This document shows, in pieces, positions 5,754 through 64,000 of a DNA stretch of 64,000 nucleotides. Location: NCBI GenBank assembly GCA_947483075.1, contig CANKLE010000002.1, positions 62,001-126,000 on the forward strand, read 5' to 3'. The notes under the pieces are model-generated. The model was not told the origin of the DNA. It searched no databases and worked only from the letters and a program-made list of their open reading frames with translations. The position numbers and the translations under genes are program-made. This DNA is from Flavobacteriaceae bacterium. GTDB lineage: Bacteria > Bacteroidota > Bacteroidia > Flavobacteriales > Flavobacteriaceae. Each line of letters starts with the position of its first letter. The first letter of the stretch is position 1.

Positions 5754-5864
5754 TCATTATTCGGGATTAATTTATACGGCATTAATCAAGTAGGTATTTT
5801 AGTAGCTCACTTGTAAATATTATTATTTAATTTCGCAGCCATATTCAATATAAAAATTATAAAA

Positions 5865-47443: not shown

Positions 47444-47461
47444 TTGTATAGTTTTTATATA
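47444..47461 (+). promoter_or_regulatory. PUL promoter element, site 1
   Basis: TTGTATAGTTTTTATATA, identical at 49086-49103. It starts 51 bp upstream of the -7 box at 47495. A probable activator-binding site. Confidence 0.75.
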
Positions 47462-47475
47462 CAACGCAATTCTGA

Positions 47476-47502
47476 TTGTGCAGTGCAGATGGTTTATATT
47501 TG
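47476..47502 (+). promoter_or_regulatory. Core promoter of the first secreted PUL protein
   Basis: TTG (47476-47478) as -33 and TATATTTG (47495-47502) as -7 box, 16 bp between; 20 bp from the box end to the ATG at 47523. Confidence 0.65.
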
Positions 47503-47522
47503 ATAAAACTAAATTAGAACTT

Positions 47523-48809
47523 ATGAAAAAAATTGTACAAATAAGCGTTTTCTTGGTATCGGCTTTTACTTGGGCGCAAAACGGTCCAATAACTTTTGAA
47601 CCGGGTGAACTAGGTGCTGCATGGGTCTGGAAAGTATTCGAAAACGGAACAAATTCCCCTTTAGAATTTGTAAGTAATCCGTCTACTACCGGAATAAACA
47701 CCTCGGCTACTGTTGCCAAAATGACCACACTTGCAGTTGGTGCTCCCTTTGCCGGTGTCGAAAATCAGCATCCAGGATCGCAACCGGTTCCGGGTCCGTC
47801 GGCCTTAGGCTCGTATGTGATTACAGCAAACAACTGCACGGTACGCATCCTAGTATATAAATCAGTGATTAGTGATGTGGGAATTAAATTTGCCTCGGCA
47901 ACCAATGCGTCTACGGGCGAAATTAAAGTGGCCAACACCCAAGTAAATCAATGGGAAGAGTTGGTTTTTGACTTTTCCAGTCGCATCGGAGAAACCAATG
48001 ACCAATTGATTATTTTCCCTGATTTCCAGGCGAGAACTTCAGATAATGTGTGTTATTTTGATCAAATCTCCTTTGGTCCAGAAATTATTAAACCCGAATT
48101 GCCTTTGGATTTTGAGGTAGCTGGTTTGGATTATAACTTCACCAATTTTGGAAACACCGATACTTCAGTAATTGGAAATCCATATCCATTGGGCATCAAT
48201 ACGTCGGCACATGCCGGAATTTTGATTAAGAACAATGGTCCAGAATGGTCTGGATCCTTTATTGAATTGGGATCAGCTATCAATTTTTCAGCTTCACAAA
48301 CCTTTAAAATGAAGGTATATGCACCCCAAGTAGGCAGTGTGGTTAAATTGAAATTAGAGAATTTAACAAACGCCGCATTTAATGTCGAAGTAGATGCAAC
48401 CACTACAGTGGCTAACGATTGGCAGGAATTATCCTTTACTTTTCCTGGCATCAATTCGGCTAATAACTACAAAAGAGTGGTTGTGTTTTTCAATTTTGGG
48501 GTAATCGGAACGGGCGAATATTATTTGTTTGATGATATTCGATTGGATTTGCCATTTAGTACGGCAACCAATGAAATGCCATCCCTTGTGGTTTCTCCTA
48601 ATCCTGCAACTGATCAAATAAACATTAACATGAGCAGTCCGATGCAAAAAATAACGATCTATTCTTCACTTGGTCAAGTAGTGCAGGAAGAATTTGTTTC
48701 AAGTACACAGGCTTCACTTTCGATTGCAAACCTAAACAACGGACTATATGTTTTGGTTGTTCAAACACAAGATGGTAAAAGCAGTTCTTCTAAGTTAATT
48801 AAGGGTTAA
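47523..48809 (+). CDS. T9SS-secreted protein with two CBM-like beta-sandwich domains
   Basis: 428 aa. Signal peptide to about residue 18 (ending WAQ). Two copies of a ~150-aa jelly-roll-like domain (about 22-190 and 195-350), each closing with a Y-(F/L)-FD(D/Q)I strand. The second copy aligns with the domains of the surface lipoprotein at 58786 (FTNFGNTDTSVIGNPYP versus FTNFGNASSSVVANPF; KMKVYAPQVGSVVKLKLEN versus KMKVYSPQAGIVIKMKVEN). A type A T9SS sorting domain ends the chain (SPNPATDQINI, IYSSLGQVV, NGLYVLVVQTQDGKSSSSKLIKG in part). No catalytic motif. Likely a secreted glucan-binding protein. Confidence 0.88.
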   Translation: MKKIVQISVFLVSAFTWAQNGPITFEPGELGAAWVWKVFENGTNSPLEFVSNPSTTGINTSATVAKMTTLAVGAPFAGVENQHPGSQPVPGPSALGSYVITANNCTVRILVYKSVISDVGIKFASATNASTGEIKVANTQVNQWEELVFDFSSRIGETNDQLIIFPDFQARTSDNVCYFDQISFGPEIIKPELPLDFEVAGLDYNFTNFGNTDTSVIGNPYPLGINTSAHAGILIKNNGPEWSGSFIELGSAINFSASQTFKMKVYAPQVGSVVKLKLENLTNAAFNVEVDATTTVANDWQELSFTFPGINSANNYKRVVVFFNFGVIGTGEYYLFDDIRLDLPFSTATNEMPSLVVSPNPATDQININMSSPMQKITIYSSLGQVVQEEFVSSTQASLSIANLNNGLYVLVVQTQDGKSSSSKLIKG

Positions 48810-48832
48810 ATATTAATTTTATAGAAGTCAAG

Positions 48833-48863
48833 AAAAGCACGTTTGTTTAACGTGCTTTTTTGT
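48833..48863 (+). terminator. Terminator of the first secreted PUL gene
   Basis: AAAAGCACGTT (48833-48843) pairs with AACGTGCTTTT (48849-48859), followed by T residues. The stem core AGCACG recurs in the terminator at 51076. Confidence 0.92.
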
Positions 48864-48957
48864 TTTATAGATTTCTTCTATCTATAAACAAAATTAATAA
48901 ACACACAGCTAACTCTTGTATAGCTTGCACGGCACGAAAACGAAATAGTGTACTACA

Positions 48958-48970
48958 TCACTACCACAAC
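48958..48970 (+). promoter_or_regulatory. CACTACCACAACA motif, copy 1
   Basis: Identical 13-mer at 53985-53997. Its ACCACAACA core occurs on the opposite strand at 54135-54143. It lies about 180 bp upstream of the -7 box at 49137. Confidence 0.6.
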
Positions 48971-49085
48971 ATAATATTTGATTAAGCGCCAATCATTAAA
49001 TATCAAACAGCTGTTAAATATTGTTTATCTATATGAAATTCAATATGTTTTGACTTATTTTGCTGGGAAGTTCTGCAAATGAAAG

Positions 49086-49103
49086 TTGTATAGTTTTTAT
49101 ATA
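49086..49103 (+). promoter_or_regulatory. PUL promoter element, site 2
   Basis: TTGTATAGTTTTTATATA, identical to site 1, starting 51 bp before the -7 box at 49137. Confidence 0.75.
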
Positions 49104-49136
49104 GCTCTGCTTACTACATCGTTTGCATTCCTGTTG

Positions 49137-49144
49137 TACATTTG
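49137..49144 (+). promoter_or_regulatory. -7 box of the second secreted PUL protein
   Basis: TACATTTG followed by AA; 30 bp from its start to the ATG. Confidence 0.65.
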
Positions 49145-49166
49145 AACAAATCAAAAATTTAATAAG

Positions 49167-51050
49167 ATGAAAAAAACTTTACAATTAGTTGCTATTTTGT
49201 TTTGCTCCTTCGCGGGAATTCAAAACGGAATTGCTCAAAATTCAGTTTCTGTAAACGGAGCTGATTTGTGGACTGGCTATGCCAATGTCTTTTTAACTGA
49301 TGGAACAACGTTTCAGTTTGGAAGTGGTTGGGGATTGGCCGATATGAAATCGGTAGTTAATGCAGGTGCCAACACGGTTACTTTGTATCCAAACTACAAC
49401 ACCTACAATGCCGCTGATCCGTATTGGTCAAATGGCGCTGTTGGAAACAAAATATTTGAAGGAAATACCTTTGTCGAAAACAATTCATTTGCAGGTCAAG
49501 TGCTAACTTTTACGGGTAACGTAACAAGCAACACCTTAAACTCTGCCTATACAGCGGTTGCCTTTATTAAAGGATTAAATCCTGCAACTGGCTATTCTAC
49601 TGATGTATTTGTTTCTGCCCCTTTAGTGGCCGGTCAAGCTTTTAGTATCACTACTGACACTGCTATTCCTGCAGGATTAGTGGTACAATATGGTTTTACC
49701 ATCAAAGGTTTGAATGCTAATCCAGCGCAAGAAGCTGCCTTAGGTAATGTAGTAGTAGCAGGAAATGCAGTAACTCCTCAGGAGCCACTTACTGCTGCAC
49801 CAACACCTACACGCCCAGCTGCCAATGTAGTTTCGATGTTTAGTAATGCCTACACCAACGTAACCGTAGATACTTGGAGAACCGATTGGTCTAACGCTAC
49901 CTTAACAGATTTGCAAATTGCAGGAAACGATACCAAAAAATATTCTGCTTTGAGCTTTGTAGGAGTTGAGGCTACTTCAAGCCCAATTAATGCAACTGCA
50001 ATGACTACTTTTCACGTAGATGCTTGGACGGCTAACATGACTGCTTTCCGTGTGAAATTGGTTGATTTTGGTGCTGATGGAGCTTTTGCTGGAGGCGACG
50101 ACGTAGAACACGAAATTACTTTTGTGCCTACTCAAAATGCTTGGAACAGTTACGATATTCCATTGGCTGATTTTGGAGGATTAATTACAAGAGGCCACAT
50201 CGCTCAATTAATTTTCTCAGGTTTGCCTGATGCTGCCGGTGTTGTTTATATCGACAACGTATATTTTCACAATGTACCAACAACAAATCCAAATGAACCA
50301 ATGACGGCTGCACCAACGCCAACTCATCCGGCTGCTTCTGTGATTTCTATGTTTAGCAATGCCTACACCAATGTAGCAGTTGATACTTGGAGAACCGTTT
50401 GGTCTTCGGCTAACTTAACTGACTTGCAAATTGCAGGGAATGACACTAAAAAATATTCTGCGTTAAATTTTGTGGGTGTTGAAACAGTAAACAGCCAGAT
50501 TAACGCCACCAACATGCAATATTTCCACGTGGATGCTTGGACACCAAACATGACAACTTTCCGTGTGAAATTGGTTGATTTTGGAGCGAATGGAATTTAC
50601 CAAGGAACACCTAATGATGATGTGGAATACGAATTGTCATTTACACCTGTATTGAACGCTTGGAACAGCTACGATATTCCGTTGTCAGATTTCACAGGAT
50701 TGACTACACGTTCTCATATTGCCCAATTGATTTTCTCCGGAAATCCAGCTGGTGCAGGAACTGTTTTTATTGATAATGTGTATTTTAGAAATGCTGTTTT
50801 TGCTTCAACTACTTTTGATTTAGCTCAGGTGAACATGTTCCCTAATCCTTCGTCAGATCTAGTGACTATTTCTGCTGCTAAAACAATGGATACAATTGCT
50901 ATTTATTCTATAGTAGGTCAAGAAATCAAACAAATTCACCCAAATACTGCTTCTGCAACAGTTGATGTAGCTGATTTACAAGCCGGTATTTATGTGGTAA
51001 AAGTAACTACTGATGGAGTAACAGCTACTTCAAGATTAGTTAAAAAATAA
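49167..51050 (+). CDS. T9SS-secreted protein with a duplicated CBM-like domain
   Basis: 627 aa. Signal peptide about 1-23 (ending GIAQ). An N-terminal beta-rich domain of unknown type (about 24-200, SVNGADLWTGYANVFL). Then two ~170-aa repeats (about 206-375 and 377-548) that share TAAPTPT, SMFSNAYTNV, DLQIAGNDTKKYSAL and IAQLIFSG; the second looks like a recent duplicate. The final ~70 residues are a type A T9SS domain (NMFPNPSSDLVTISA, AIYSIVGQEIK, LQAGIYVVKVTTDG). Repeats of this kind often occur beside GH16 modules in flavobacteria. No catalytic motif; likely a secreted beta-glucan-binding protein. Confidence 0.88.
   Translation: MKKTLQLVAILFCSFAGIQNGIAQNSVSVNGADLWTGYANVFLTDGTTFQFGSGWGLADMKSVVNAGANTVTLYPNYNTYNAADPYWSNGAVGNKIFEGNTFVENNSFAGQVLTFTGNVTSNTLNSAYTAVAFIKGLNPATGYSTDVFVSAPLVAGQAFSITTDTAIPAGLVVQYGFTIKGLNANPAQEAALGNVVVAGNAVTPQEPLTAAPTPTRPAANVVSMFSNAYTNVTVDTWRTDWSNATLTDLQIAGNDTKKYSALSFVGVEATSSPINATAMTTFHVDAWTANMTAFRVKLVDFGADGAFAGGDDVEHEITFVPTQNAWNSYDIPLADFGGLITRGHIAQLIFSGLPDAAGVVYIDNVYFHNVPTTNPNEPMTAAPTPTHPAASVISMFSNAYTNVAVDTWRTVWSSANLTDLQIAGNDTKKYSALNFVGVETVNSQINATNMQYFHVDAWTPNMTTFRVKLVDFGANGIYQGTPNDDVEYELSFTPVLNAWNSYDIPLSDFTGLTTRSHIAQLIFSGNPAGAGTVFIDNVYFRNAVFASTTFDLAQVNMFPNPSSDLVTISAAKTMDTIAIYSIVGQEIKQIHPNTASATVDVADLQAGIYVVKVTTDGVTATSRLVKK
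49782..50800 (+). repeat. Tandem duplication of a CBM-like domain inside the gene
   Basis: Codons 206-375 and 377-548 (49782-50291 and 50295-50810) encode closely similar domains; the first ~60 residues differ at about ten positions. Confidence 0.85.
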
Positions 51051-51075
51051 GAATACAATTCAAAGAGTTAGAATT

Positions 51076-51109
51076 AAAAAAGCACGTTTGAACAGAGCGT
51101 GCTTTTTTA
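51076..51109 (+). terminator. Terminator of the second secreted PUL gene
   Basis: AAAAAAGCACG pairs with CGTGCTTTTTT (51098-51108 region) around a TTTGAACAGAG loop. Separates this gene from the regulator gene. Confidence 0.9.
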
Positions 51110-51145
51110 TCTACTCACCAAATCGGGAAGTACAAATAAAATAGG

Positions 51146-53965
51146 ATGAAAGTAACGTTTAGTCATAATTTAATAGCATTGCTGTTGATATTCGGCATCA
51201 ACATTCCTGGATTTTCGCAGGAATTGCCGCCTATTGTAAAGTACAGCCCTACCAATTACAATGCAGGAAATCAAAACTGGATGATGTCGCAAGATGCCAA
51301 CCATTTTTTGTTTTTCGCCAACAACGAAGGCTTGCTAGAGTTTAATGGATCGAACTGGACCTTGTATCCCACGCCCAATGAAACCATTATGCGTTCGGTA
51401 AAAGTAATAGACAATAAAATCTACACCGGCTGTTATATGGAATTTGGCTATTGGAAACGCCAAGCCAACGGACGTTTGCTCTATACTTCCTTGAGTCAAA
51501 AAATCAAAACTAAAATACTTGATGATGAACAATTTTGGAACATCATCAACGTAGACCAATATGTGTTATTTCAGTCGTTGAACCGCATTTATATCTACGA
51601 CACCAAAACGGGTCACTTCAAAATAGTGAGCAGTAAATCTATTATTACCAAAGCCTTCAAAACCAATTCTGCGGTATATTTTCAGTCGATGAATGAGGGT
51701 TTATTTGAAATTGAAAATGGCAAATCCAAATTGATTTCAAATAATCCTATTATTCAGCACAATAAAATAAGCAATGTCATTGCCACCGATTACGGCCTAT
51801 TGATTTTAACCCAAGTAAATGGATTTTACAAATTAATTGGAACGTCGCTCACCAAATACCAGACCGAAGCTGATGCCCAGTTTGCGGCCAATAGCATTTA
51901 TTGTAGCCAACAATTATCCGACGGAAATTTTGCCATCGGCACCGTATCAAATGGAATTTATATATTGAGCAGCGCAGGAAAAATTCGCTACCACATTACC
52001 CAAAACAGAGGTTTGAGCAACAATACGGCCTTGTCTATGTTTGAAGATGCCGATAAGAATTTATGGATTGGCTTAGACAACGGAATCAATTGCATCAATT
52101 TGCAATCTCCGGTTAAGAGTTTCTCTGACGATACTGGAATTTTAGGCACCGTATATACTTCCAAATTGTTTCAAGGCAAATTGTACATCGGAACCAACCA
52201 AGGCTTGTTTTGTAAAAATTACAATTCTAATGAACAGTTTCAGTTTGTTCCCGGAACAAAAGGGCAGGTATGGTCTTTGTTTGATTTTGATGGCACCTTA
52301 TTTTGCGGGCACGATTCAGGAACCTTTGTGGTAAATGGGAATTCGGCCCACATGATATTTTCGCAATCGGGAACCTGGAAGTTTGAACCCCTTCAAGGCA
52401 CGAAATCAATTTTGTTGCAAGGCAATTATTACGGGGTATCGGTGTTGCAAAAAATCAACAACCAATGGGTTTTTCGCAATAAGATTGCGGGCTTTGATTA
52501 CTCGGCAAAGTATTTTGAATTGACACCCAATTTAGAAGTCTATATCAGCCACGAATACAAAGGTGTATTTCGTTTGCAGTTGGATAAATACTTACAGAAA
52601 GCCACTGCTTTTTATACCTATTCAAGCCCCTCTAAAGGAAAAAATGCGTGCTTAACCCAGTTCAATAATGCCATTTACTACGCCTACAAAGACGGTATTT
52701 TTAAACTCAATCTCAAGACTAAACAATTTGAAAAAGACAAGCAATTGAGTGCAGTTTTCGAAAAAGACGAATTTACCTCTGGCAATATGATTGTCGATCA
52801 ATCTAATAAAATTTGGTTGTTTTCTAAAAATTACATCCATTATTTCACGCTCAATAAATTGAGTTATAACCTCAAACAAAATGCCATTCCAATCCCGTCT
52901 TCGCTTACCAATTCGATGTCGGGCTATGAGAACATCTCGCAATTGTATAATTCAGTCTATTTGATTGGCACCACCGATGGGTATTATACAATCAATATCA
53001 ATGATCTGAGCTTTAAAAATTACAGTGTTTCGATTGCCAATGTTGCGATCAATCAACTCAACGAAAACAGCATCAATTGCTCTATTGTAGACGAAGGAGA
53101 TTTTAACGCCAAAGAAAATAACATCACTTTTACCTATACCGTTCCCGAATACAACAAATACATCAACGCCGAATACCAGTATTCTTTAGAAGGTATTCAG
53201 GATGAATGGAGCGAGTGGAGCGCCAAACCAACAGTCAATTTTAAGAATTTAGCCCCTGGTGATTATGTGTTTCGCGTGCGTGCTAAGATTGCCAATTCTT
53301 CTCCCGACAACATTGCTGAATACAAATTTTCTGTAGCCAAACCCTGGTATGCCACAAATTTGGCAGTTATTTTGTATTTACTGATTGCCCTTATTATCGC
53401 GCATTTCATCAACCGGGCTTATCAAAAGTATTACCAGCAACAACATGCGAAACTCATCGAAGAAAACAATTTGTTGCTCGAAATTAAAGAATTAGAAAAC
53501 GAACAACAACTCATGAAGTTGCGCAACGAACAGCTTTCGCAAGACGTAGACACCAAGAGCAGAGAATTGGCAGTTTCTACCATGAGTTTAATCAAGAAAA
53601 ACGAATTGTTGGCGGTGATCAAAGAAGATTTGAAAAAAACCTCTGAAGATGGCAGCCGTACTGTAAAATCGGTGATTTCGACCATTACCAAAAACATCTC
53701 AGAAGAAGATACCTGGAATGTATTTAAAGAAGCTTTTGATACGGCTGACAAGGACTTTTTGAAAAAAGTAAAGCAAGCCCATTCCTCTCTCACGCCAAAT
53801 GATTTGCGTTTATGCGCGTATTTACGTCTGAATTTATCTTCGAAAGAAATTGCTCCTTTGTTGAATATATCCGTGCGAAGCATAGAGATTAAACGATATC
53901 GTTTGCGTAAAAAGATGGAGTTGCCGCACGAACAAGGCTTGGTAGAATACATCTTGTCTATTTAA
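51146..53965 (+). CDS. SusR-like membrane-spanning transcriptional regulator
   Basis: 939 aa, a one-component sensor. Signal or anchor at about 8-25. Residues about 25-630 are repeated beta-propeller blades (LLEFNGSNWTLYP, DADKNLWIGLDNGINCI). A Y_Y_Y domain follows (about 640-735, FTYTVPEYNKYINAEYQY and GDYVFRVRAK). One transmembrane helix (about 743-765, LAVILYLLIALIIAHFI) and a coiled coil (about 770-820) lead to a LuxR-type HTH (about 880-939, LTPNDLRLCAYL, SSKEIAPLLNISVRSIEIKRY). There is no histidine kinase domain. B. thetaiotaomicron SusR has this layout. It probably senses a beta-glucan fragment in the periplasm and activates the PUL promoters. Confidence 0.92.
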   Translation: MKVTFSHNLIALLLIFGINIPGFSQELPPIVKYSPTNYNAGNQNWMMSQDANHFLFFANNEGLLEFNGSNWTLYPTPNETIMRSVKVIDNKIYTGCYMEFGYWKRQANGRLLYTSLSQKIKTKILDDEQFWNIINVDQYVLFQSLNRIYIYDTKTGHFKIVSSKSIITKAFKTNSAVYFQSMNEGLFEIENGKSKLISNNPIIQHNKISNVIATDYGLLILTQVNGFYKLIGTSLTKYQTEADAQFAANSIYCSQQLSDGNFAIGTVSNGIYILSSAGKIRYHITQNRGLSNNTALSMFEDADKNLWIGLDNGINCINLQSPVKSFSDDTGILGTVYTSKLFQGKLYIGTNQGLFCKNYNSNEQFQFVPGTKGQVWSLFDFDGTLFCGHDSGTFVVNGNSAHMIFSQSGTWKFEPLQGTKSILLQGNYYGVSVLQKINNQWVFRNKIAGFDYSAKYFELTPNLEVYISHEYKGVFRLQLDKYLQKATAFYTYSSPSKGKNACLTQFNNAIYYAYKDGIFKLNLKTKQFEKDKQLSAVFEKDEFTSGNMIVDQSNKIWLFSKNYIHYFTLNKLSYNLKQNAIPIPSSLTNSMSGYENISQLYNSVYLIGTTDGYYTININDLSFKNYSVSIANVAINQLNENSINCSIVDEGDFNAKENNITFTYTVPEYNKYINAEYQYSLEGIQDEWSEWSAKPTVNFKNLAPGDYVFRVRAKIANSSPDNIAEYKFSVAKPWYATNLAVILYLLIALIIAHFINRAYQKYYQQQHAKLIEENNLLLEIKELENEQQLMKLRNEQLSQDVDTKSRELAVSTMSLIKKNELLAVIKEDLKKTSEDGSRTVKSVISTITKNISEEDTWNVFKEAFDTADKDFLKKVKQAHSSLTPNDLRLCAYLRLNLSSKEIAPLLNISVRSIEIKRYRLRKKMELPHEQGLVEYILSI

Positions 53966-53977
53966 TTTAGCTCATTA

Positions 53978-53997
53978 AACTATACACTACCACAACA
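53978..53997. promoter_or_regulatory. AACTATAC plus CACTACCACAACA motifs upstream of susC
   Basis: AACTATAC (53978-53985) is the reverse complement of GTATAGTT of the 18-bp element; it overlaps the second copy of the 13-mer (53985-53997). About 190 bp upstream of the susC -7 box. Confidence 0.6.
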
Positions 53998-54122
53998 AAA
54001 TTGAATTACTAAACGAGTCGTCCTACAATAAAATAATTGCGCAAATAACTAGCAACCTATGTATATAAAGAGATTAACGTGAATAGCACTAGGATGATGG
54101 TTCATTATTAAAAAAAAGAAGG

Positions 54123-54143
54123 TTGTATGTTTTTTGTTGTGGT
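54123..54143 (+). promoter_or_regulatory. PUL promoter element, site 3 (variant), with an inverted ACCACAACA core
   Basis: TTGTATGTTTTTTGTTGT, a diverged copy of sites 1 and 2. TGTTGTGGT (54135-54143) is the reverse complement of ACCACAACA. It starts 51 bp before the -7 box at 54174, the same distance as in sites 1 and 2. Confidence 0.65.
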
Positions 54144-54173
54144 TGCAAATCAAGATCAGACACTAAACTATAC

Positions 54174-54181
54174 TACTTTTA
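54174..54181 (+). promoter_or_regulatory. -7 box of susC
   Basis: TACTTTTA, one base from TAnnTTTG; 30 bp from its start to the ATG. The AACTATAC at 54166-54173 adjoins it. Confidence 0.5.
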
Positions 54182-54203: not shown

Positions 54204-57200
54204 ATGAAGTCAAAAATTGTATTGTATTTCGTTCTGCTCTTGTCGGCTTTGGGCTATTCCCAAACCTATGAGGTAGGCGGAACTGTAAAAGATGCCGATA
54301 CTGGTGCAGTGATTCCAGGAGTAAATATTATCGCATCTTCGGGGAATTCAGCGAGCACAGATCTAAACGGAACCTTTACATTAAAAGGAATTCCAGCGGG
54401 ATCAACCTTAGTATTTTCTTACTTAGGCTACAAGGAAAATAAGATTAAAATTTCTAAATCTAACGCAGCGCTCCTAGTAACGCTCAAATCAGATGTGCAA
54501 TCTCTAGAACAGGTAGTTGTAATTGGGTACGGTTCGCAAAAGAAGAAGGACATAACTGGTGCAGTAGGTTTGGTTGATGCCAAAACTATTGAAAAGTTAA
54601 AGCCTATTAAAATCGAACAAGCCTTAACCGGAACTTTGGCTGGAGTAACCGTAACTTCTCAATCGGGTGCGCCAGGTGCGGGTTTAGATATTCGGATTCG
54701 TGGGGTGCAAAGTAACTTAGACAACTCTCCTTTATATATAGTGGATGGAAATATTTCGGACCCTAGTATTTTGAATCCGAGCGATATTGAATCGATCACT
54801 GTTTTGAAAGATGCACAAGCAGCCATTTATGGTGTACGTGGAGCCAATGGAGTAGTAATCATTAAAACCAAAATGGGAAAACGCAATTCCAAAACAGTAT
54901 TTAATTACAATTCCTACACCGGTTCACAAAGTACCACCAAGCAATTGTCTTTGCTCAACGCTACCGAATATGCTTTGTTGCTCAATGAAAGTTATGCCAA
55001 CGGAGGCAAGCCATTGCCTTATCCGAATGTATCGGGTTTAGGAGCGGGAACCAACTGGCAAAACGAAGTCTTTAGTTCGGCTGCACCCATGCAAAGCCAT
55101 GACATCAGTGTGTCTGGCGGATCAGAAAAAATAAATTTTGCCATGAGTGGCTCCGATTTAAAACAAAGCGGTATTGTCGGAACCGATAAATCAGGTTTCA
55201 AACGCAACACCATCATGATGTCCTTGAATGCCGACTTGAACGACAAATTAAAATTGCAATCGAGTGTCAATTATGTGTTCATTAACCGTAAATCGTTAAA
55301 CGAAAACGGCTTGGGTTCTGTGTTGTTTAATGCAGTAAATACGCCTTCTACCTTAACCCCAAGAGATGCAAACGGCAACTTTACTTTAGTGCCAAGCACG
55401 CCTGGTTTTGGAATTGAAGTTATTAATCCCTTAGCACAAATAGACAATACCTATAATGATTACAACGGCAAACGCATCAGCGGAGTAGTAACTTTAGATT
55501 ATGCTTTTTTTAAAAATTGCAATTTAACTACACGTGTGGGCGCCAATACCTACAACGCAGAGGGCAAAACCTTCAATAAAATCGTAAACTACGGCGGAAA
55601 GGTATTTGATGTAACCCGCAGTTCGGTAAATCAAAACGCCATCAACGACAACAGTTATGTGATGGATATGTACTTAACATATAAAAAAGCATTTCCAGAC
55701 GGTTTAACTTTAACTAGTGTTTTCGGAACTTCTAACTCCAAAGTATGGGGCAATGGTTTGTTTGCCACGGGTTATGATATCCCGAACAATTCCTGGGATT
55801 TTGCCGACATCAGTCTAGCAACAGGCGCAACCACTACCCGTGACGTAGGTTCGTACACCTATGATGATCGCTTGAACTCGTACTTTTTGCGAATGCAGTA
55901 TGATCAAGATGGTAAATACATATTGTCTTGGATGCTAAGAAGAGATTCTTCTTCAAAGTTTGGACCTGAAAATGCGTCAGGATTTTTTCCTTCAACAACT
56001 GCAGGCTGGATTATTTCGAAAGAAAATTTTATGGATAATTTTAAAGCCATTAATTTCATGAAAGTACGCGCCAGTTATGGGATATTAGGAAATGATAAAA
56101 TTCCATCCAATGGTTACGTCGGCTATTTGAACGGCGAAGGCGTCTATGTGTTTGACAATACCATTACAACCGGTGTTGCCATTGGTTCACTAGCTAATCC
56201 AAAGTTGAAATGGGAAGAAGCAGTAAAACTTGATTGGGGAATAGACTTAAAATTATTAAACAATAAATTGGATTTCACCTACGATTACTTTGTAGAAACC
56301 CGTGAAGATTTATTAATTGCTGGTCTGCCTGTTTCAGGTATTACCGGTACGGGTGGTCCTGGTGGTTATCCACCCACAGTAAATGCCGGATCTACCCGCA
56401 ATATAGGGCATGAAATGTCTTTGGGTTGGAACCAAAAAATTGGCAATGATTTTTCCTTCAATGTCAATTACAACATCACTACCATCAACAACATGGTAAC
56501 CAAAGTAAATAACGGTACCGGCGTGTTGCAAAGTGGCTCATTTGGCGTAGGCCAACAGCCCATTGCTCGCATGGAAAAAGGCTATTCTATTGGGTATTTC
56601 TATGGCTTGCAATCGGACGGTATTTTCCAAAACCAAGCCGAAGTAGATGCACATCCGTCGCAAATTGCATTGGGAGCTGTAGCCCAACCGGGTGATATTC
56701 GCTTCAAAGATGTGAATGGCGATGGCGTAATTAACTTAAACGACCGTACCAAAGTGGGAAGTCCATTGGCTGATTATACCATGGGATTCAATCTAAGTAT
56801 GAATTATAAAAACTTTGATTTCGCGGCCTATTCTTATGCCTCGTTGGGGAATGATATGGTGCGCAACTACGAACGTTCGATGTCTGATTTGAACAAAATG
56901 AATTATGTATTGGGCAGATGGACCGGCGAAGGAACAAGTAATACGGTGCCTCGTGTAACCACAGAAGCGACGACAAACAATCTTTTCTCTGATTATTATG
57001 TAGAAGACGCTTCGTTCTGGAGAATTCAAAACATTCAATTGGGGTATACGTTTGCCAACAGCTTGTCGCAAAAAGTAGGCATCACCAAACTCCGTTTGTA
57101 TTCGAGCATGACCAATCCATTTACCTTTACCAAATACCGTGGATATGATCCTACAGGATCGAATGGATCGGCAATTGGAGGTGGAATCGACTATGGTTTT

Positions 57201-57248
57201 TATCCTTCTCCTAAAGTGTTTATTTTGGGACTTAATCTTAATTTTTAA
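54204..57248 (+). CDS. SusC-family TonB-linked outer-membrane transporter
   Basis: 1014 aa. Signal peptide (about 1-20, ending GYSQ), CarboxypepD_reg-like domain (about 22-95, with GVNIIASSGN), the SusC signature QVVVIGYGSQKKKDITGAV with the plug (about 105-220, including GVRGANGVVIIKTK), and a large barrel ending in NLNF. SusC proteins import oligosaccharides across the outer membrane with TonB energy and a SusD lid. SusD starts at the last base of the susC stop (TAATG), so the pair is translationally coupled. The ligand is inferred as beta-1,3-glucan oligosaccharides from the neighbouring GH16 and GH3 genes. Confidence 0.97.
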   Translation: MKSKIVLYFVLLLSALGYSQTYEVGGTVKDADTGAVIPGVNIIASSGNSASTDLNGTFTLKGIPAGSTLVFSYLGYKENKIKISKSNAALLVTLKSDVQSLEQVVVIGYGSQKKKDITGAVGLVDAKTIEKLKPIKIEQALTGTLAGVTVTSQSGAPGAGLDIRIRGVQSNLDNSPLYIVDGNISDPSILNPSDIESITVLKDAQAAIYGVRGANGVVIIKTKMGKRNSKTVFNYNSYTGSQSTTKQLSLLNATEYALLLNESYANGGKPLPYPNVSGLGAGTNWQNEVFSSAAPMQSHDISVSGGSEKINFAMSGSDLKQSGIVGTDKSGFKRNTIMMSLNADLNDKLKLQSSVNYVFINRKSLNENGLGSVLFNAVNTPSTLTPRDANGNFTLVPSTPGFGIEVINPLAQIDNTYNDYNGKRISGVVTLDYAFFKNCNLTTRVGANTYNAEGKTFNKIVNYGGKVFDVTRSSVNQNAINDNSYVMDMYLTYKKAFPDGLTLTSVFGTSNSKVWGNGLFATGYDIPNNSWDFADISLATGATTTRDVGSYTYDDRLNSYFLRMQYDQDGKYILSWMLRRDSSSKFGPENASGFFPSTTAGWIISKENFMDNFKAINFMKVRASYGILGNDKIPSNGYVGYLNGEGVYVFDNTITTGVAIGSLANPKLKWEEAVKLDWGIDLKLLNNKLDFTYDYFVETREDLLIAGLPVSGITGTGGPGGYPPTVNAGSTRNIGHEMSLGWNQKIGNDFSFNVNYNITTINNMVTKVNNGTGVLQSGSFGVGQQPIARMEKGYSIGYFYGLQSDGIFQNQAEVDAHPSQIALGAVAQPGDIRFKDVNGDGVINLNDRTKVGSPLADYTMGFNLSMNYKNFDFAAYSYASLGNDMVRNYERSMSDLNKMNYVLGRWTGEGTSNTVPRVTTEATTNNLFSDYYVEDASFWRIQNIQLGYTFANSLSQKVGITKLRLYSSMTNPFTFTKYRGYDPTGSNGSAIGGGIDYGFYPSPKVFILGLNLNF

Positions 57249-58744
57249 TGCACAGTACGATGAGAAAATATACAATCTATTCCTTGTTAGCGGTTTTTTT
57301 AGGAACTGCATTTATGGTATCTTGTTCGGATGAATTTGTGAACCGAAAAGCCCCTTATTCTATTGATTCTGAAAATTATTTTAACTCTGAATCCGATTAC
57401 AACCAAGCCTTGATTGGCGCCTATGATATGCTTCAATCTACTTACTTAAATGTAATGATGGGCGAAATTGCCTCAGACAATACGGCTTCTGGAGGCGAAA
57501 GCGCCATTGACGTGATTGGGGTGCAACAAATTGACGACATGATTCACACCTCGGCCAACCCCCAATTGAAAAATTTGTGGGATTGGATGTTTGCTGGCGT
57601 TCAACGTTGCAACTACATTTTAGAGTTCAAAGACAAAACCGATTTTACCAACAAACCACAGCTACTTGCCGAAACCCGATTCTTGCGAGCCTACTACCAT
57701 TTTGAATTGGTGAAATGGTTTGGTGCAATTCCCTTAAACGGAGACAAACGTTTTTCTGTAGAAGACGTTACACGGGTGCCAAGATCTTCCGTACATGATG
57801 TATATGCCAGTATCGAAGCCGACTTGCAATTTGCAGTGGCCAATTTGAAAACCAAAAGTGAAAATCCATCCAAAGGAAGAGCAACAAAAGGTGCGGCTCA
57901 AGCTTTGTTGGGTAAAGTTTACTTGTACCAAGAAAAATATGTTGATGCCTCTAATGTATTAGAAGATTTGATCAACACCGGTGATTATGCCTTGGTTTCT
58001 GATTACAATTCTATTTTTGAGAATAACGGCGAAAACAACATCGAATCGGTTTTTGAAGTGCAATACACCGACCAAGAAGGTGCTAGTTTTGATTGTTTGC
58101 AATGCAGCGAAGGGAATGTGGCTGTAGGATTCAACGGGATCAGAAATTACAGTGGACCTTTATTTGAATCGGGCTACAGCTTTAATGTACCCCGTCAAGA
58201 AGTAGTGGATGCTTTTGAACCTGGTGATCGTCGTAAAGATGTTGCCATATTAGACATAGTTACATGGGCAGCTGCCAATAATGCTTCCTACGGAGTAGGG
58301 TACAAACATACGGGCTACTTTAACCGTAAATACATTCCGCGTGTAGGCGATGCCAACATCGGTGATCAGAATTTAACCAACCCAAACAATTACCGTTCTA
58401 TTCGTTATGCCGATGTGCTTTTGATGGCAGCAGAAGCCTTTAATCGTGGCGGAATTGATGATGCCAAAGCCAGAAACTACCTCAATGAAGTACGTCGCAG
58501 AGCTTTTGGCGACAGCAATCACGATACCCCAGCGGTTTCGGGAGCCAACCTTACCGAATTGATTCTAGCCGAACGCCGAGTAGAATTAGTAGGAGAGGGG
58601 CAGCGCTTTTTTGATTTGGTGCGTACCGGAAAAGCAGCGGCCGAAATTGAAGGCTTTACTGCTGGTAAAAACGAATTATTTCCAATTCCAATCGAAGAAA
58701 TTCAATTCTCAAATGGCAATTGGCAACAAAATCCTGGGTATTAA
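57248..58744 (+). CDS. SusD/RagB-family surface lipoprotein
   Basis: 498 aa. Lipobox MVSC; the next residues SDEF are acidic, the pattern of lipoproteins sent to the cell surface in flavobacteria. The SusD fold of TPR-like helices is visible: YNQALIGAYDMLQSTYLN near 50, LLAETRFLRAYYHFELVKWFG around 140, and RYADVLLMAAEAFNRGG plus AERRVELVGEGQRFFDLVRTG near the C-terminus. It forms the lid of SusC and binds glycan. The start may be ATG 57248 or the ATG four codons later; the first gives the 1-bp overlap with susC. Confidence 0.97.
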   Translation: MHSTMRKYTIYSLLAVFLGTAFMVSCSDEFVNRKAPYSIDSENYFNSESDYNQALIGAYDMLQSTYLNVMMGEIASDNTASGGESAIDVIGVQQIDDMIHTSANPQLKNLWDWMFAGVQRCNYILEFKDKTDFTNKPQLLAETRFLRAYYHFELVKWFGAIPLNGDKRFSVEDVTRVPRSSVHDVYASIEADLQFAVANLKTKSENPSKGRATKGAAQALLGKVYLYQEKYVDASNVLEDLINTGDYALVSDYNSIFENNGENNIESVFEVQYTDQEGASFDCLQCSEGNVAVGFNGIRNYSGPLFESGYSFNVPRQEVVDAFEPGDRRKDVAILDIVTWAAANNASYGVGYKHTGYFNRKYIPRVGDANIGDQNLTNPNNYRSIRYADVLLMAAEAFNRGGIDDAKARNYLNEVRRRAFGDSNHDTPAVSGANLTELILAERRVELVGEGQRFFDLVRTGKAAAEIEGFTAGKNELFPIPIEEIQFSNGNWQQNPGY

Positions 58745-58785
58745 TTTATCGTAGTTGAAACAATTACTTGAAAAAACATAGAAAA

Positions 58786-60336
58786 ATGAAAAAATTACTC
58801 CTCGCATTATTTTCCCTTAGTTTGTTAACCAATTGCACAATGGATTCTAAGGACGTTGATTTGAATGCCATAGGTGCTCCCGAAAACATTTCGGCACTCA
58901 TGACCATAGCCCAAGACAATTCGGGTAAGGTAACGATTACGCCAAGAGGACAAGGTGTTACCCAATACGAAGTGTATTTTGGTGATACTACTGTTGAGCC
59001 TGCGTTTGTAAATCCGGGGCAATCGGTTACGCATACCTTCACCGAAGGACTGTTTCATGTACGCATAGTTGGAACTACACTAAACGGCAAACGCACCGAA
59101 GTTACCCAAGATTTAACCGTGACTTTTGTAACACCAACCAATTTACAATCTACTGTAAGCCCAGTTACGGGTGACAACATGAGTGTTACTGTAACCGCTA
59201 CAGCCAATTTGGAAACCTTCTTTCAAGTTTATTTTGGCGATGTAGCAAATGAAATTCCTGTAGCCTTTAACGAAGGGGAAACCATTACCCATACCTATGC
59301 CGCACAAGGCACTTATACAGTTGTCGTTAGAGCATTGAGCGGTGGATCTGCTTATGCAGAGGAACAACATACTGTGGTGATTTCCAATCCCATTTTGTTG
59401 CCCATAGATTTTGAATCGACAACCTTAGATTATACTTTTACCAATTTTGGAAATGCCAGCTCCTCTGTAGTAGCCAATCCGTTTATCAATGCTGGAAACG
59501 GCAGTGCCAAAGTGGCCAAAATGACAAAAACAATGGGAGCCGATACCTGGGCGGGTTCTTATCTTACCGTTGGAAACCCAATTGATTTCTCAGTAATGAA
59601 GAAAATCAAAATGAAGGTCTATTCGCCTCAAGCGGGAATTGTGATCAAAATGAAAGTTGAAAACGCAACAGATGCAACAATCTTTAAAGAATCAGATGTG
59701 ACGCTTACAACGGGCAATTCTTGGCAAGAACTTACTTTTGATTTCACGGGCATTAATACAGCCAATACCTACCAAAAAATCGTGGTGTTTTTCAATTTTG
59801 GCAATCCTGGAGTGGGCTTGAGTTATTATTTTGATGACATTCAACAATCCTCAGGAGCAGAGGCCTTAGGTTTACCTCTCAACTTTCAATCTACGGCCTT
59901 AAATTATACGTTTGTCGATTTTGGTTCGGCAGCCACAACGGTGGTAACTAATCCACAAAGTAATGGAATTAACACCTCGACCAAGGTGGGTAAATTTGAT
60001 AAAGTAAATGGGGCACAAACTTGGGCAGGTTCTAGTATTTTGTTGGATGGCCCCATAAATTTTGCGGTGCAAAAGAAAATTAAAATGAAAGTTTGGTCAC
60101 CCGCCGTTGGGAAAACGGTTAAATTGAAATTTGAAATTCTCAATGCCGGAAATCCCGATCCTACCAATATTGAACGCGATGCAACCACCACCGTGGCGAA
60201 CGCATGGGAGGAATTGACCTTTGATTTTACCGGAATCATTAATTCCAATAATTACCGCAGAGTTGTACTTTTCTTCGATTTTGGTTCAACAACTGCTTCC
60301 ACCTATTATTTTGACGACATTATTCAAGCAAACTAA
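58786..60336 (+). CDS. Surface glycan-binding lipoprotein with two CBM-like domains
   Basis: 516 aa. Lipobox LTNC (Cys17), ATG at 58786. Two PKD-like Ig domains (about 25-110 and 115-200, VTQYEVYFGDTTVEPAFV in part, GETITHTYAAQGTYTVVVRA), then two ~150-aa jelly-roll-like domains (about 205-355 and 360-516). These align with the T9SS protein at 47523 (KMKVYSPQAG, WQELTFDFTGI, FFNFGN, YYFDDI). Position right after SusD and before GH16 is that of SusE/F-like surface glycan-binding proteins of beta-glucan PULs. It probably captures the polymer at the surface. No catalytic motif. Confidence 0.88.
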   Translation: MKKLLLALFSLSLLTNCTMDSKDVDLNAIGAPENISALMTIAQDNSGKVTITPRGQGVTQYEVYFGDTTVEPAFVNPGQSVTHTFTEGLFHVRIVGTTLNGKRTEVTQDLTVTFVTPTNLQSTVSPVTGDNMSVTVTATANLETFFQVYFGDVANEIPVAFNEGETITHTYAAQGTYTVVVRALSGGSAYAEEQHTVVISNPILLPIDFESTTLDYTFTNFGNASSSVVANPFINAGNGSAKVAKMTKTMGADTWAGSYLTVGNPIDFSVMKKIKMKVYSPQAGIVIKMKVENATDATIFKESDVTLTTGNSWQELTFDFTGINTANTYQKIVVFFNFGNPGVGLSYYFDDIQQSSGAEALGLPLNFQSTALNYTFVDFGSAATTVVTNPQSNGINTSTKVGKFDKVNGAQTWAGSSILLDGPINFAVQKKIKMKVWSPAVGKTVKLKFEILNAGNPDPTNIERDATTTVANAWEELTFDFTGIINSNNYRRVVLFFDFGSTTASTYYFDDIIQAN

Positions 60337-60370: not shown

Positions 60371-62035
60371 ATGTACAAAAAAATAATATTCAAAACTTTG
60401 GCTGCCTTTTCACTTTTTACATTAGTAAATTGTCAAGAAAGTGATTTGGGATTTGGCGAGATCAATTCCCCGTCAAATTTACAAGTAAGCCTAGTTGTTC
60501 AAGGTCAAGATGCTGCACATCCCAATGGTGATGGGTCTGGTTTGGTTACGCTTACGGCAACTGCCGAAAATGCGATTTCCTATAAATATATGTTTAGTGA
60601 TGGATCAGAAAAAAACCAACCTAACGGTATTTTTCTTAAACGATTCACTACGCCAGGATTGCATACTTATTTGGTAACCGTATTGGCTTCAGGAAGAGGT
60701 GGAGTGACCACAAATACTTCTGTAGAAGTTACGGTGCTCTTTAATTTCCGTGACGACGAGGCCGTTGATTTGCTTACTGGCGGTTCCTCAAAAATCTGGT
60801 ATTGGTCTGCCTCAGAACGCGGTCATTTGGGTGAAGGCTTAAACAGCACAGACAATACTACCAATTACTATTCAAACGAATACCAATCTGATCCTTGGAA
60901 TCAATATACTACCTGTTTGTATGATGACGAATTGATTTTCACCAAAGCAGGAAACGACATGCAATTTGAGTTAAAAAACTACGGAACCAGTTTAATCAAC
61001 CGGGAATTTTTGAGTGTAGTTGGCCAACCCAATAGCCACCAGTATGTTGATGGCTGTAATTTGTTTTCTGGACCGGAGGCTACAGGAGTAAAAAATGTAA
61101 CCCTTACCCCATCAGAATCATTGGCAAACCCAAGCGAAAAACGCGGAACCGTCATGACTTTTTCTGACGCAGGATTCATGGGCTTTTATTTAGGTCAAAG
61201 TTCGTATGAAATCATGTCCATTACCCCTACACGTATGGTGGTGCGCACGGTGCAAGAAGCATTTACCCCTTCGGGTGCTCCGCACTCCTCTGCCTGGTAC
61301 CATATTTTTACCACAATCAAACCGGTAGAAGATCAGGTTATAGATTACACCAATTTGGTTTGGGCCGACGAATTTAATACCGATGGCGCTCCCGATGCAA
61401 CCAAATGGTCTTACGACACCGGAGCCGGTGGTTGGGGAAATAATGAAGCGCAATATTACACGAATAACCCGTCCAATTCAGTAGTTTCGAATGGGACGCT
61501 CAAAATCACCGCCAAAGCACAAAGCGTGGGAACTTCTTCTTATACTTCCGCCCGATTAAAATCGGAGAATAAATTTGAATTTACTTACGGAAAAGTAGAA
61601 TGCAAAGCCAAATTGCCAGCAGGTGCAGGAACTTGGCCGGCTATTTGGATGTTGGGTCAAAATTATGCGACCAATATATGGCCTGCCTGTGGCGAAATTG
61701 ACATCATGGAGCACAAAGGATATGATCCGAACAAGATATACGGATCCTTACATTATCCGGGACATTATTCCGGCGGTTCGGTAACAAACACTACAGTAAT
61801 CGCAAATGCAACGACTCAATTCCATGTGTATAAAGCCGTTTGGACACCAACTTCTATAAAATTTTATGTAGATAACACCTTATTTCATTCCTTTGCCAAT
61901 AGTGGATCAGTGCCATTTAATAGTGATTTCTTTTTGATATTGAATGTGGCTATGGGAGGAGATTTTGGAGGTGCTATTGATCCTAATTTTAGTGAAGCGG
62001 CCATGGAAGTCGATTATATTAGAGTTTATCAATAA
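60371..62035 (+). CDS. GH16 endo-beta-1,3-glucanase (laminarinase-type) lipoprotein
   Basis: 554 aa. Lipobox LVNC, followed by acidic ESD, so surface-exposed. A PKD-like domain (about 30-125) and a linker domain (about 130-310, WYWSASERGHLGEG) precede a GH16 domain (about 315-554). The catalytic signature is GEIDIMEHKG with Glu442 (nucleophile), Asp444 and Glu447 (acid/base). The domain starts LVWADEFNTDGAPD and contains GRVECKAKLP-like KVECKAKLPAGAGTWPAIWML. The extra Met in EIDIME is typical of laminarinases and lichenases. It starts the degradation of laminarin-like glucan at the surface. Confidence 0.95.
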   Translation: MYKKIIFKTLAAFSLFTLVNCQESDLGFGEINSPSNLQVSLVVQGQDAAHPNGDGSGLVTLTATAENAISYKYMFSDGSEKNQPNGIFLKRFTTPGLHTYLVTVLASGRGGVTTNTSVEVTVLFNFRDDEAVDLLTGGSSKIWYWSASERGHLGEGLNSTDNTTNYYSNEYQSDPWNQYTTCLYDDELIFTKAGNDMQFELKNYGTSLINREFLSVVGQPNSHQYVDGCNLFSGPEATGVKNVTLTPSESLANPSEKRGTVMTFSDAGFMGFYLGQSSYEIMSITPTRMVVRTVQEAFTPSGAPHSSAWYHIFTTIKPVEDQVIDYTNLVWADEFNTDGAPDATKWSYDTGAGGWGNNEAQYYTNNPSNSVVSNGTLKITAKAQSVGTSSYTSARLKSENKFEFTYGKVECKAKLPAGAGTWPAIWMLGQNYATNIWPACGEIDIMEHKGYDPNKIYGSLHYPGHYSGGSVTNTTVIANATTQFHVYKAVWTPTSIKFYVDNTLFHSFANSGSVPFNSDFFLILNVAMGGDFGGAIDPNFSEAAMEVDYIRVYQ

Positions 62036-62085: not shown

Positions 62086-64000
62086 ATGATTCAAAAATTG
62101 TTTAGTATAATGTCGTTCGTGCTTGTCGTGCTTTGCAGTTGCAGTGCGCCTAAACCAGTAGCGCAAAGTAAACCTAAATCGACTATTGATGTTAAAGTAG
62201 ATTCTATTTTACATCTCATGACATTAGAAGAAAAAGTAGGTCAACTGAACCAATACAATGGATTTTGGGATCTTACCGGACCTTCTCCTCTTGAAGGTCA
62301 AGCCGCATTAAAATATGAGCATTTACGCAAAGGTTGGGTGGGTTCTATGCTCAACATCAAAGGTGCCGAAAATGTGCGTAAAATACAAAAATTGGCCGTC
62401 GAGGGTTCTCGACTTCATATTCCTTTATTATTTGGATTTGATGTAATACATGGCTACAAAACCATTAGCCCAATTCCGCTGGCAGAAGCGGCGAGTTGGG
62501 ATATGGAGGCCATCCAAAAATCAGCGGCAATTGCTGCCGAAGAATCGGCTGCTGTGGGAATCAACTGGACATTCGCCCCTATGGTCGATGTGTCGCGTGA
62601 TCCCAGATGGGGAAGAGTAATGGAAGGTGCAGGAGAAGATCCGTACTTGGGCAGTAAAATTGCCGAAGCACGTGTACACGGATTTCAAGGCGCCAATTTT
62701 GATTCTAATAAAACCATTTTAGCCTGTGCCAAACATTTTGCAGGCTATGCATTTGCCGAAGCAGGACGTGATTACAATACGGTAGATGTTTCGGAAACGG
62801 TATTGCAAAATGTGATTTTCCCACCATTTAAAGCTGCAGTCAATGCGGGTGTTCGCACTTTCATGAATTCATTTAATGAGTTGAATGGAGTTCCAGCTAC
62901 AGCCAGTAGCTATTTGCAGCGCAACCTTTTAAAAGGCGATTGGAATTTCAAAGGCTTTGTGGTTTCAGACTGGGGATCTGTGCGTGAAATGATCACACAT
63001 GGGTATGTAGCTGACGAAAAAGCAGCGGCCTTAGCGGCCATTCAAGGCGGTTCAGACATGGACATGGAATCCTATATTTATGTTGCCCAATTGGCTCAAC
63101 TGGTGCGCGAAGGCAAAGTGCAAGAATCGCTCATTGACGATGCAGCAGCTCGTATCCTTCGAATCAAATTTGAAATGGGACTATTTGATAATCCCTACAA
63201 ATATTGTGACGAAGCCTACGAAAAAGCCACAGTAGGCAAACCCGCGTTTCAAGAAGGCGTGTTGGATGTAGCCAAAAAATCTATAGTATTGTTAAAAAAC
63301 GACAAGGAGTTGTTGCCTTTGCCCAAGACAGGCAAGCGTATTGCAGTTATTGGCTCCTTGGCCAACGACAAAACAAGTCCATTAGGCAGCTGGCGAATTG
63401 CAGCAGATGAAAACACTGCCATTTCTGTATTAGAAGGATTAAAAGCCTATCCAGGGAATCAAATCGCCTATGCCAAAGGAGCAGAGGTTGCGTATGGTAA
63501 AATAGAATTTGGTTCAGAAACCAAGATCAACGAAACCGACAAATCTGGATTTTCCGAAGCCATTCTTTTGGCAAAGCAGTCGGATATTGTAATCATGGTG
63601 CTTGGCGAACACGGTTTGCAAACGGGTGAAGGTCGTTCGCGAGCCAATTTGGATTTGCCTGGAGTGCAACAAGAATTGTTGGAATCCGTATATCAAGTGA
63701 ACCCCAATATTGTATTGGTGTTGCAAAATGGTCGTCCCTTAGTAATTCCATGGGCCGTCGAAAATATTCCGGCTATAGTTGAAGCCTGGCAATTGGGAAC
63801 CCAAAGTGGCAATGCCCTTGCACAGGTGTTGTATGGCGATTACAATCCGAGTGGAAAACTGCCAATGACTTTCCCCAGAAGTATTGGTCAAATCCCAATG
63901 TATTATTACCGCAAAAATACCGGAAGACCTTCTACCGGCGATCCAAACAGTGTATTTTGGTCGCATTATATGGACGAGAAAAACACACCACAATTTCCTT
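62086..64000 (+). CDS. bglX: GH3 beta-glucosidase lipoprotein (3' end beyond window)
   Basis: Open from ATG 62086 to the right edge (638 codons), so the C-terminus is missing. Lipobox LCSC near residue 17. The GH3 N-terminal TIM barrel (about 35-380) has LEEKVGQLNQ, PLLFGFDVIHGYKT, NWTFAPMVDVSRDPRWGR, CAKHFAGYAFAEAGRDYN and FVVSDWGS, with the nucleophile Asp295 of SDW. The alpha/beta sandwich begins about 400 (SIVLLKND) and includes MVLGEHGLQTGEGRSR with the probable acid/base. It would release glucose from beta-gluco-oligosaccharides in the periplasm, the last step of this PUL. Coexpression with GH16 is likely (50-bp gap). Confidence 0.95.
   Translation, partial: MIQKLFSIMSFVLVVLCSCSAPKPVAQSKPKSTIDVKVDSILHLMTLEEKVGQLNQYNGFWDLTGPSPLEGQAALKYEHLRKGWVGSMLNIKGAENVRKIQKLAVEGSRLHIPLLFGFDVIHGYKTISPIPLAEAASWDMEAIQKSAAIAAEESAAVGINWTFAPMVDVSRDPRWGRVMEGAGEDPYLGSKIAEARVHGFQGANFDSNKTILACAKHFAGYAFAEAGRDYNTVDVSETVLQNVIFPPFKAAVNAGVRTFMNSFNELNGVPATASSYLQRNLLKGDWNFKGFVVSDWGSVREMITHGYVADEKAAALAAIQGGSDMDMESYIYVAQLAQLVREGKVQESLIDDAAARILRIKFEMGLFDNPYKYCDEAYEKATVGKPAFQEGVLDVAKKSIVLLKNDKELLPLPKTGKRIAVIGSLANDKTSPLGSWRIAADENTAISVLEGLKAYPGNQIAYAKGAEVAYGKIEFGSETKINETDKSGFSEAILLAKQSDIVIMVLGEHGLQTGEGRSRANLDLPGVQQELLESVYQVNPNIVLVLQNGRPLVIPWAVENIPAIVEAWQLGTQSGNALAQVLYGDYNPSGKLPMTFPRSIGQIPMYYYRKNTGRPSTGDPNSVFWSHYMDEKNTPQFP

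Follow-up and report, generated by a model that had tools for sequence, protein, structure and literature searches.

The stretch of DNA analyzed here, referred to as the window, comprises 64,000 nt of Flavobacteriaceae bacterium GCA_947483075.1 (contig CANKLE010000002.1, positions 62,001-126,000, forward strand). It contains two genes for secreted proteins, S1 and S2, followed by a gene for a SusR-like regulator and by a PUL that begins with a susC-like gene. The promoters of S1, S2, and susC each carry an element, termed D, and those of S2 and susC also carry a second site on the opposite strand, termed U. The features are listed by window coordinates and strand.

47444..47461, plus strand: D site of S1, TTGTATAGTTTTTATATA, without a U partner (best U score 2.2)
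47495..47502, plus strand: -7 box of S1, TATATTTG, 51 bp past the start of D
47523..48809, plus strand: secreted gene 1 (S1), 428 aa
48952..48972, minus strand: U site of S2, reading ACTACATCACTACCACAACAT on the plus strand, two half-sites 11 bp apart
49086..49104, plus strand: D site of S2, TTGTATAGTTTTTATATAG
49137..49144, plus strand: -7 box of S2, TACATTTG
49167..51050, plus strand: secreted gene 2 (S2), 627 aa
51146..53965, plus strand: SusR-like regulator, 939 aa
53978..53998, minus strand: U site of susC, reading AACTATACACTACCACAACAA on the plus strand, directly 3' of the regulator stop codon
54123..54144, plus strand: D site of susC, TTGTATGTTTTTTGTTGTGGTT
54174..54181, plus strand: -7 box of susC, TACTTTTA
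54204..57248, plus strand: susC-like gene, first gene of the PUL
57248..58744, plus strand: susD-like gene
58768..60336, plus strand: gene for a SusE-like PKD/CBM protein
60371..62035, plus strand: GH16 gene
62086..64000, plus strand: GH3 gene, continuing past the window end

Genes of families GH16 and GH3 mark laminarin PULs, and both are present here together with the susC/susD pair, the content expected of a laminarin or β-1,3-glucan PUL. Judged by its gene content (susC, susD, the SusE-like PKD/CBM protein, GH16, and GH3), the locus is a predicted PUL of the β-1,3-glucan type. The two secreted proteins resemble components of the same system. S1 is CBM_4_9-like, scoring just under the Pfam cut-off, and shares 39% identity over 334 aa with the SusE-like protein of the PUL, while S2 consists of two repeats of one domain that, in a relative, forms the C-terminal part of the protein in the SusE position (62%). 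Both carry type IX secretion (T9SS) tails. The earlier note had placed these two proteins in the regulon as members not usually counted with a PUL; their membership is supported, and their description as unusual is not, S1 and S2 being relatives of SusE-like glycan-binding proteins. In one relative (L062), a single 610-aa gene before the regulator combines the N-terminal part of S1 with the C-terminal part of S2, and these secreted genes therefore seem to recombine domains. On the other side of S1, a 929-aa minus-strand ORF (44561-47350), presumably uvrA, also lies beside the regulator locus in many relatives (927-937 aa), making this a recurrent insertion point.

In Pfam, the regulator exceeds the cut-offs of Reg_prop (22.4 bits) and Y_Y_Y (38.8 bits), and in the PDB it is matched best by chains of two-component hybrid sensors; no kinase domain appears in its Pfam listing. 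A GerE/LuxR-type helix-turn-helix at residues 881-934 scores 20.9 bits, below the Pfam cut-off of 23.5, yet this region is strongly conserved across 14 orthologues, and a hydrophobic stretch can be read ahead of it. These features are those of a SusR-like regulator with a putative periplasmic sensor and a C-terminal HTH.

The earlier note had described TTGTATAGTTTTTATATA as repeated before S1 and S2, with a variant before susC, all at one distance from the -7 box, and each of these observations was reproduced. The copies at 47444-47461 and 49086-49103 agree at 18 of 18 positions, and the variant TTGTATGTTTTTTGTTGT lies at 54123-54140. The distance from the start of the element to the start of the -7 box is 51 bp at S1, S2, and susC alike, and the boxes lie 28, 30, and 30 bp ahead of the respective ATGs (47523, 49167, and 54204). 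The Bacteroidota promoter consensus has TAnnTTTG at -7 and TTTG at -33. The boxes found here are TAnnTTT-like and occupy a fixed place, with the last base in the susC set mostly A rather than G; D ends at the -33 region, where a canonical TTTG is not evident. In susC promoters, D is followed by a conserved T-run that is not evident at S2. An additional TTGTATAGC occurs at 48916-48924, 170 bp 5' of the S2 D site, and lacks a T-run.

The U site, which the earlier note did not include, is found on the strand opposite to D at susC and S2. Both D and U consist of two tandem half-sites, roughly TGTWKWGG, 11 bp apart. A scan of the S1 promoter for U found none, leaving D alone. At susC and S2, the unit is the U and D pair rather than D by itself.

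An alignment of 28 regulator-susC gaps, from the window and 27 relatives, is conserved in two islands, D and U. These relatives come from 52 loci fetched as the closest matches, with regulators 46-74% identical; 70 of 150 relatives match the regulator at E ≤ 1e-50, a count that takes in paralogues. The D consensus in these gaps is TGTATgTTTTTTGTwgwGGtt, and a TAnn(T/A)TT box lies at +50 from its TGT (+51 in one case) in all 27 gaps in which D was recognized, the remaining gap (L048) having a variant D. The U consensus, ACCTATACATnACCWCAACA, lies directly 3' of the regulator stop. For 19 of a further 22 gaps, the next gene is not a susC orthologue; 11 of these 19 nevertheless hold a susC-type D and 5 a variant D, with no clear D in the other three (L069, L070, and L091). 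Similarly, D precedes 19 of the 25 S2-like genes located just before the regulator (window included), and all 19 of these promoters also hold a U half-site word. Three of the six S2-like genes without D have less than 200 bp of upstream sequence.

A larger set of 97 distinct promoters, taken from the window and its relatives by the D word alone, also contains the 28 gaps used for training the U matrix. Within it, 88 promoters have a TAnn(T/A)TT box at +49-51 and 74 have U; because the species are related, such promoter and genome counts are not independent events. The 23 promoters without U include that of S1, and relatives of S1 in two further loci (L125 and L130) also have D alone. Since D-only promoters exist before S1, glgA, and CotH genes, U is not obligatory.

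The distances between U and D in the 97-promoter set are 102, 112-114, 123-126, 133-138, and 145-147 bp, with 119 and 120 as off-phase outliers. They cluster near 103, 113, 124, 135, and 147 bp, that is, at whole helical turns. The best period is 11 (R 0.77; p = 2e-4 against random distances when each distinct distance is counted once), a signal that the half-sites of one tandem, themselves 11 bp apart, can feed. Within the susC set, the U-D distance correlates with gap length (r 0.88, n 27); indels of about one helical turn therefore seem to have occurred. Fifteen U-D spacers of equal length show a mean identity of 49%.

A scan of GTDB contigs with the exact susC-type D returned at least 120 loci. 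The named organisms among the 80 matches listed are largely Flavobacteriaceae of many genera, with unrelated ones such as Lachnospiraceae and archaea as well. This set is not fully independent because some loci come from species also in the training set. Among the 120 loci returned, 113 had enough upstream sequence to be evaluated. A regulator homologue ends less than 400 bp before the site in 75 of them, every one of which has U; another 19 have U and a -7 box with no homologue adjoining within the stretch examined, 17 have neither U nor box, and 2 have the box only. When the upstream sequence was reversed as a control, U was scored in 7 of the 113. The U-D distances among the loci returned are 103-105, 111-116, 122-128, 134-138, and 145-152 bp, with outliers at 159, 313, and 327, and again show a period of 11 (R 0.72; distinct-distance p = 8e-4). 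The position of 75 of the 113 evaluated loci just after a regulator homologue supports the proposal that the neighboring SusR-like protein reads the site.

Within the window, the 18-mer with up to three mismatches has three matches, namely the S1 and S2 sites and one three-mismatch match at 5847, a number reached in none of 100 dinucleotide shuffles. The 13-mer TTGTATRKTTTTT, which had been suggested for a genome search, gives 39 window matches at two mismatches compared with 26.8 expected, only slightly exceeding chance (3 of 100 shuffles reach 39). Its six exact matches in the genome are the three window sites and three sites without a -7 box; this pattern was judged too loose and dropped because three of the six are boxless. 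A position weight matrix built from susC D sites alone failed on the S-type sites, and two patterns were used instead; the second half of D differs between susC-type and S1/S2-type promoters. The 17-mer TGTATAGTTTTTATATA with at most one mismatch has six matches in the 2.4-Mb genome and none in the backwards control, while at three mismatches it falls to background level (31 versus 29).

In the genome of the window, each of these six sites is followed by a -7 box at +49-51 and by an ATG at +78-93. The six precede products with a signal-peptide-like start, as read by eye: S1, S2, a CotH/LTD protein with a T9SS tail, two T9SS proteins of 1701 and 1756 aa, and, lacking such a tail, a Peptidase_S74 protein that counts 422 aa from its ATG. 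The comparative data support the proposed regulon, which would extend beyond the window. A three-mismatch site without a -7 box precedes a secreted GH16 with a T9SS tail, a possible regulon member given that three-mismatch matches are at background. In other genomes, the 17-mer sites that were read precede S2-like, GH16, CotH-like, glgA, and other genes.

For instance, an exact D precedes the glycogen synthase gene in seven Flavobacterium genomes (L104, L105, L108-L111, and L121), all of which have the regulator. The gene was named glgA by family search in G333, G068, and G071, and elsewhere by a near-identical start; glgC was checked downstream of glgA in G333 (L170) alone. Among 121 sampled genomes, glgA was found in 19. 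A D with up to three mismatches lies before it in 6 of the 13 that have the regulator and in 0 of the 6 that do not, a suggestive difference that is not significant by itself. The window's own genome has no such glgA. These sites hint at a coupling of β-glucan sensing to glycogen storage.

The distribution of the sites across 299 congeneric genomes links them to the regulator. The susC-type D occurs in 146 genomes and the S1/S2 17-mer in 58, with two matches for each backwards control, and the regulator (E ≤ 1e-200) in 175. The regulator is present in 141 of the 146 genomes with the susC-type D and in 34 of the 153 without it; similarly, it is present in 54 of the 58 genomes with the 17-mer and in 121 of the 241 without. 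Seventeen of the 175 regulator-positive genomes contain neither exact pattern. Conversely, a motif but no regulator at E ≤ 1e-200 was seen in eight genomes. When these eight were searched again at E ≤ 1e-20, fragments turned up in G224, where the fragment is cut by the contig end and lies right before the site (L168), and in G208, where it carries internal stops; at this threshold, no regulator was found in the other six (G059, G176, G203, G191, G311, and G184). The sites in G059, G176, and G203, which have neither U nor a -7 box, look like chance. G191, which is 99% complete, and G311 have the usual S2-like promoters with D and U-like words and no regulator, and are real counter-examples unless the regulator gene falls in an assembly gap, both assemblies being in many contigs.

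More distant SusR-like proteins were associated with other half-sites at a comparable position. In seven loci of a clade with 27-33% identity (L304-L310, of which L305 and L309 have nearly the same sequence), the opposed layout is kept in the regulator-susC gap with the half-site (T)ACATCA. D lies 51-52 bp from the -7 box, and the U-D distance is 92-93 bp in five loci, 89 in L307, and 104 in L310. In L307, half-sites occur as a tandem of three at 11-bp steps. Two promoter types, TGTATAGG-type and TACATCA-type, can be told apart by their half-site, each with its own putative regulator. In a clade with 29-31% identity, the SusC-like gene is divergent in 9 of 11 loci (L293-L299, L301, and L303), and in all nine the word TGATGTGTTTTTGT, with variants in some, lies 50 bp before the -7 box when counted from its first T. 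A second copy in the same orientation is found 33 bp upstream in seven of them and 43 bp upstream in L293; only one word was recognized in L303. An opposed copy was looked for in the nine divergent loci and none was recognized, and the idea that all SusR-like clades use opposed sites was dropped. Seven of the nine loci adjoin, tail to tail, a conserved gene (427-429 aa).

A SusC match was found in 5 of 20 still more distant loci (L316, L319, L321, L326, and L334). Three of these, from another family of the class (L316, L319, and L321), contain words resembling U and D at distances of 152, 163, and 162 bp, respectively, with no TAnn(T/A)TT box at the expected place. The proximal geometry common to three clades, combined with half-sites that differ, argues for SusR-like proteins as the readers, and the varying orientation of the partner among the three argues against the opposed layout being universal. 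The activator site at fixed geometry that had been proposed for the window is supported both by this shared -7 distance and by the co-occurrence across genomes.

We consider it quite likely that D and U are the predicted binding sites of the membrane-anchored SusR-like regulator (51146-53965), through which it would activate a dispersed β-glucan regulon. The main competing explanation is that another, unlinked activator, such as a global carbohydrate regulator, binds these sites and that the SusR-like gene is merely a member of its regulon. The distal sites, located far from the regulator gene, would fit this view, as would the S2-like promoters of G191 and G311, fragmented as these assemblies are. 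It is nevertheless unlikely, given the co-occurrence in 141 of 146 versus 34 of 153 genomes and the fact that other SusR-like clades combine other half-sites with the same -7 distance. Moreover, of the five susC-type exceptions, three look like chance (L123, L124, and L167, which lack U and also a -7 box at +49-51), L168 follows a regulator fragment, and the fifth is in G311.

The remaining alternatives concern the sites one at a time. U could represent only the 5' arm of the terminator of the regulator gene, with no regulatory role, and in 8 of the 28 susC gaps (L041, L047, L055, L061, L065, L076, L077, and L079) its second half-site does pair with a downstream arm followed by T's. The window has no such hairpin, however, and 20 of the 28 gaps keep U without forming one; U is also found before S2-like genes, which precede the regulator, and its distance from D is helix-phased, making this reading very unlikely. 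A marginally smaller probability is assigned to D as part of an unusual core promoter, in the form of an UP-like or extended -33 element. Its fixed -7 geometry and its end at a -33 region that lacks an evident TTTG would suit such an element, but D tracks one regulator across genomes and is rare genome-wide, with six sites at up to one mismatch. Finally, S1 and S2 are neighbors, and their identical 18-mers might reflect a recent, functionless duplication of one promoter; differing flanks and the presence of the same 17-mer in 58 of 299 genomes, before varied genes in those read, leave this reading with a negligible probability.

Under the favored reading, with the SusR-like protein as the activator, the periplasmic propeller would sense a β-glucan oligosaccharide, a ligand suggested by the PUL content, and the cytoplasmic HTH would hold the sites and recruit RNA polymerase. 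A site abutting the -33 region is the usual place for an activator that touches RNA polymerase, and D, in this position, would work as the activator site proper. With half-sites 11 bp apart, it would accommodate two neighboring protomers on a single face of the DNA. The U site, placed on the other strand at whole-turn distances, mostly of 102-152 bp upstream, would fit a second dimer on the same face, which at susC and S2-like promoters is probably joined by looping or wrapping of the DNA, as the spacing across species suggests. The regulon would then comprise the susCD-GH16-GH3 genes, S1, S2, and other secreted proteins encoded elsewhere, together with glgA-glgC in some species.

Several known systems share parts of this arrangement. 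PhoB/OmpR-type boxes have half-sites repeated every 11 bp, with the activator abutting the -35/-33 region, and are similar to D in both respects; they differ from the present sites in that these are paired with a LuxR/GerE-like DNA-binding domain and a distant inverted partner. In AraC-type looping, one regulator uses two sites that are whole turns apart, as here, but it belongs to another protein family, and in the present case we infer looping only from spacing across species.

The closest parallel is the Bacteroides SusR-like group, for which Ravcheev et al. 2013 (PMC3878776) predicted motifs arranged as direct repeats with 67 or 77 bp between centres. According to the accessible part of that study, these regulators likewise combine a periplasmic sensor with a C-terminal HTH, are often encoded near susC/susD, and have motifs of two conserved parts with a long spacer, as U and D do in the window; the two Bacteroides distance classes differ by about one helical turn, like the turn steps observed here. 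In contrast to those direct repeats at 67 or 77 bp, the present sites lie on opposite strands, mostly 102-152 bp apart start to start, with 11-bp tandems within each site and a -7 box that follows D at a set 50 bp. Inspection of the window by eye for the direct copy that the Bacteroides model would place 64-67 bp upstream gave nothing convincing, U being the clear partner; one other Flavobacterium clade, described above with copies 33 or 43 bp apart, does use direct repeats. D-only promoters and glgA-glgC targets occur here and were not met in the accessible part of Ravcheev et al. (PMC3878776). The D/U system is thus of the SusR-like kind already known, differing in orientation, inner tandem, and distances from the Bacteroides motifs as far as that part describes them. 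Laminarin PULs of Flavobacteriia, like this one, contain SusC/SusD pairs (PMC6298971), and the opening account of that work covers neither promoter control nor satellite secreted genes. In our literature search, with most subscription papers beyond its reach, we met no report of the D/U site and found little on a DNA-level switch for laminarin use in Flavobacteriaceae.

To a broader proposal, we give roughly even chances: that SusR-like proteins share a promoter grammar and that, in Flavobacterium, β-glucan uptake is coupled to glycogen storage via D-only glgA-glgC promoters. Under this grammar, the -7 box would follow the proximal site at about 50 bp and a partner would lie whole turns upstream, the half-site differing between paralogues and the orientation of the partner between clades, that is, opposed in two Flavobacterium clades, direct at 33/43 bp in a third, and direct at 67/77 bp in Bacteroides. 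If it is true, the regulons of unknown SusR-like proteins could be read from sequence, and with half-sites that are swapped between paralogues while the geometry stays fixed, the specificity of SusR-like proteins can be tested directly. Laminarin is a major algal carbon store, and a site this specific would predict regulons and expose dispersed secreted β-glucan genes outside PULs, while D before glgA would suggest a link from β-glucan sensing to glycogen storage.
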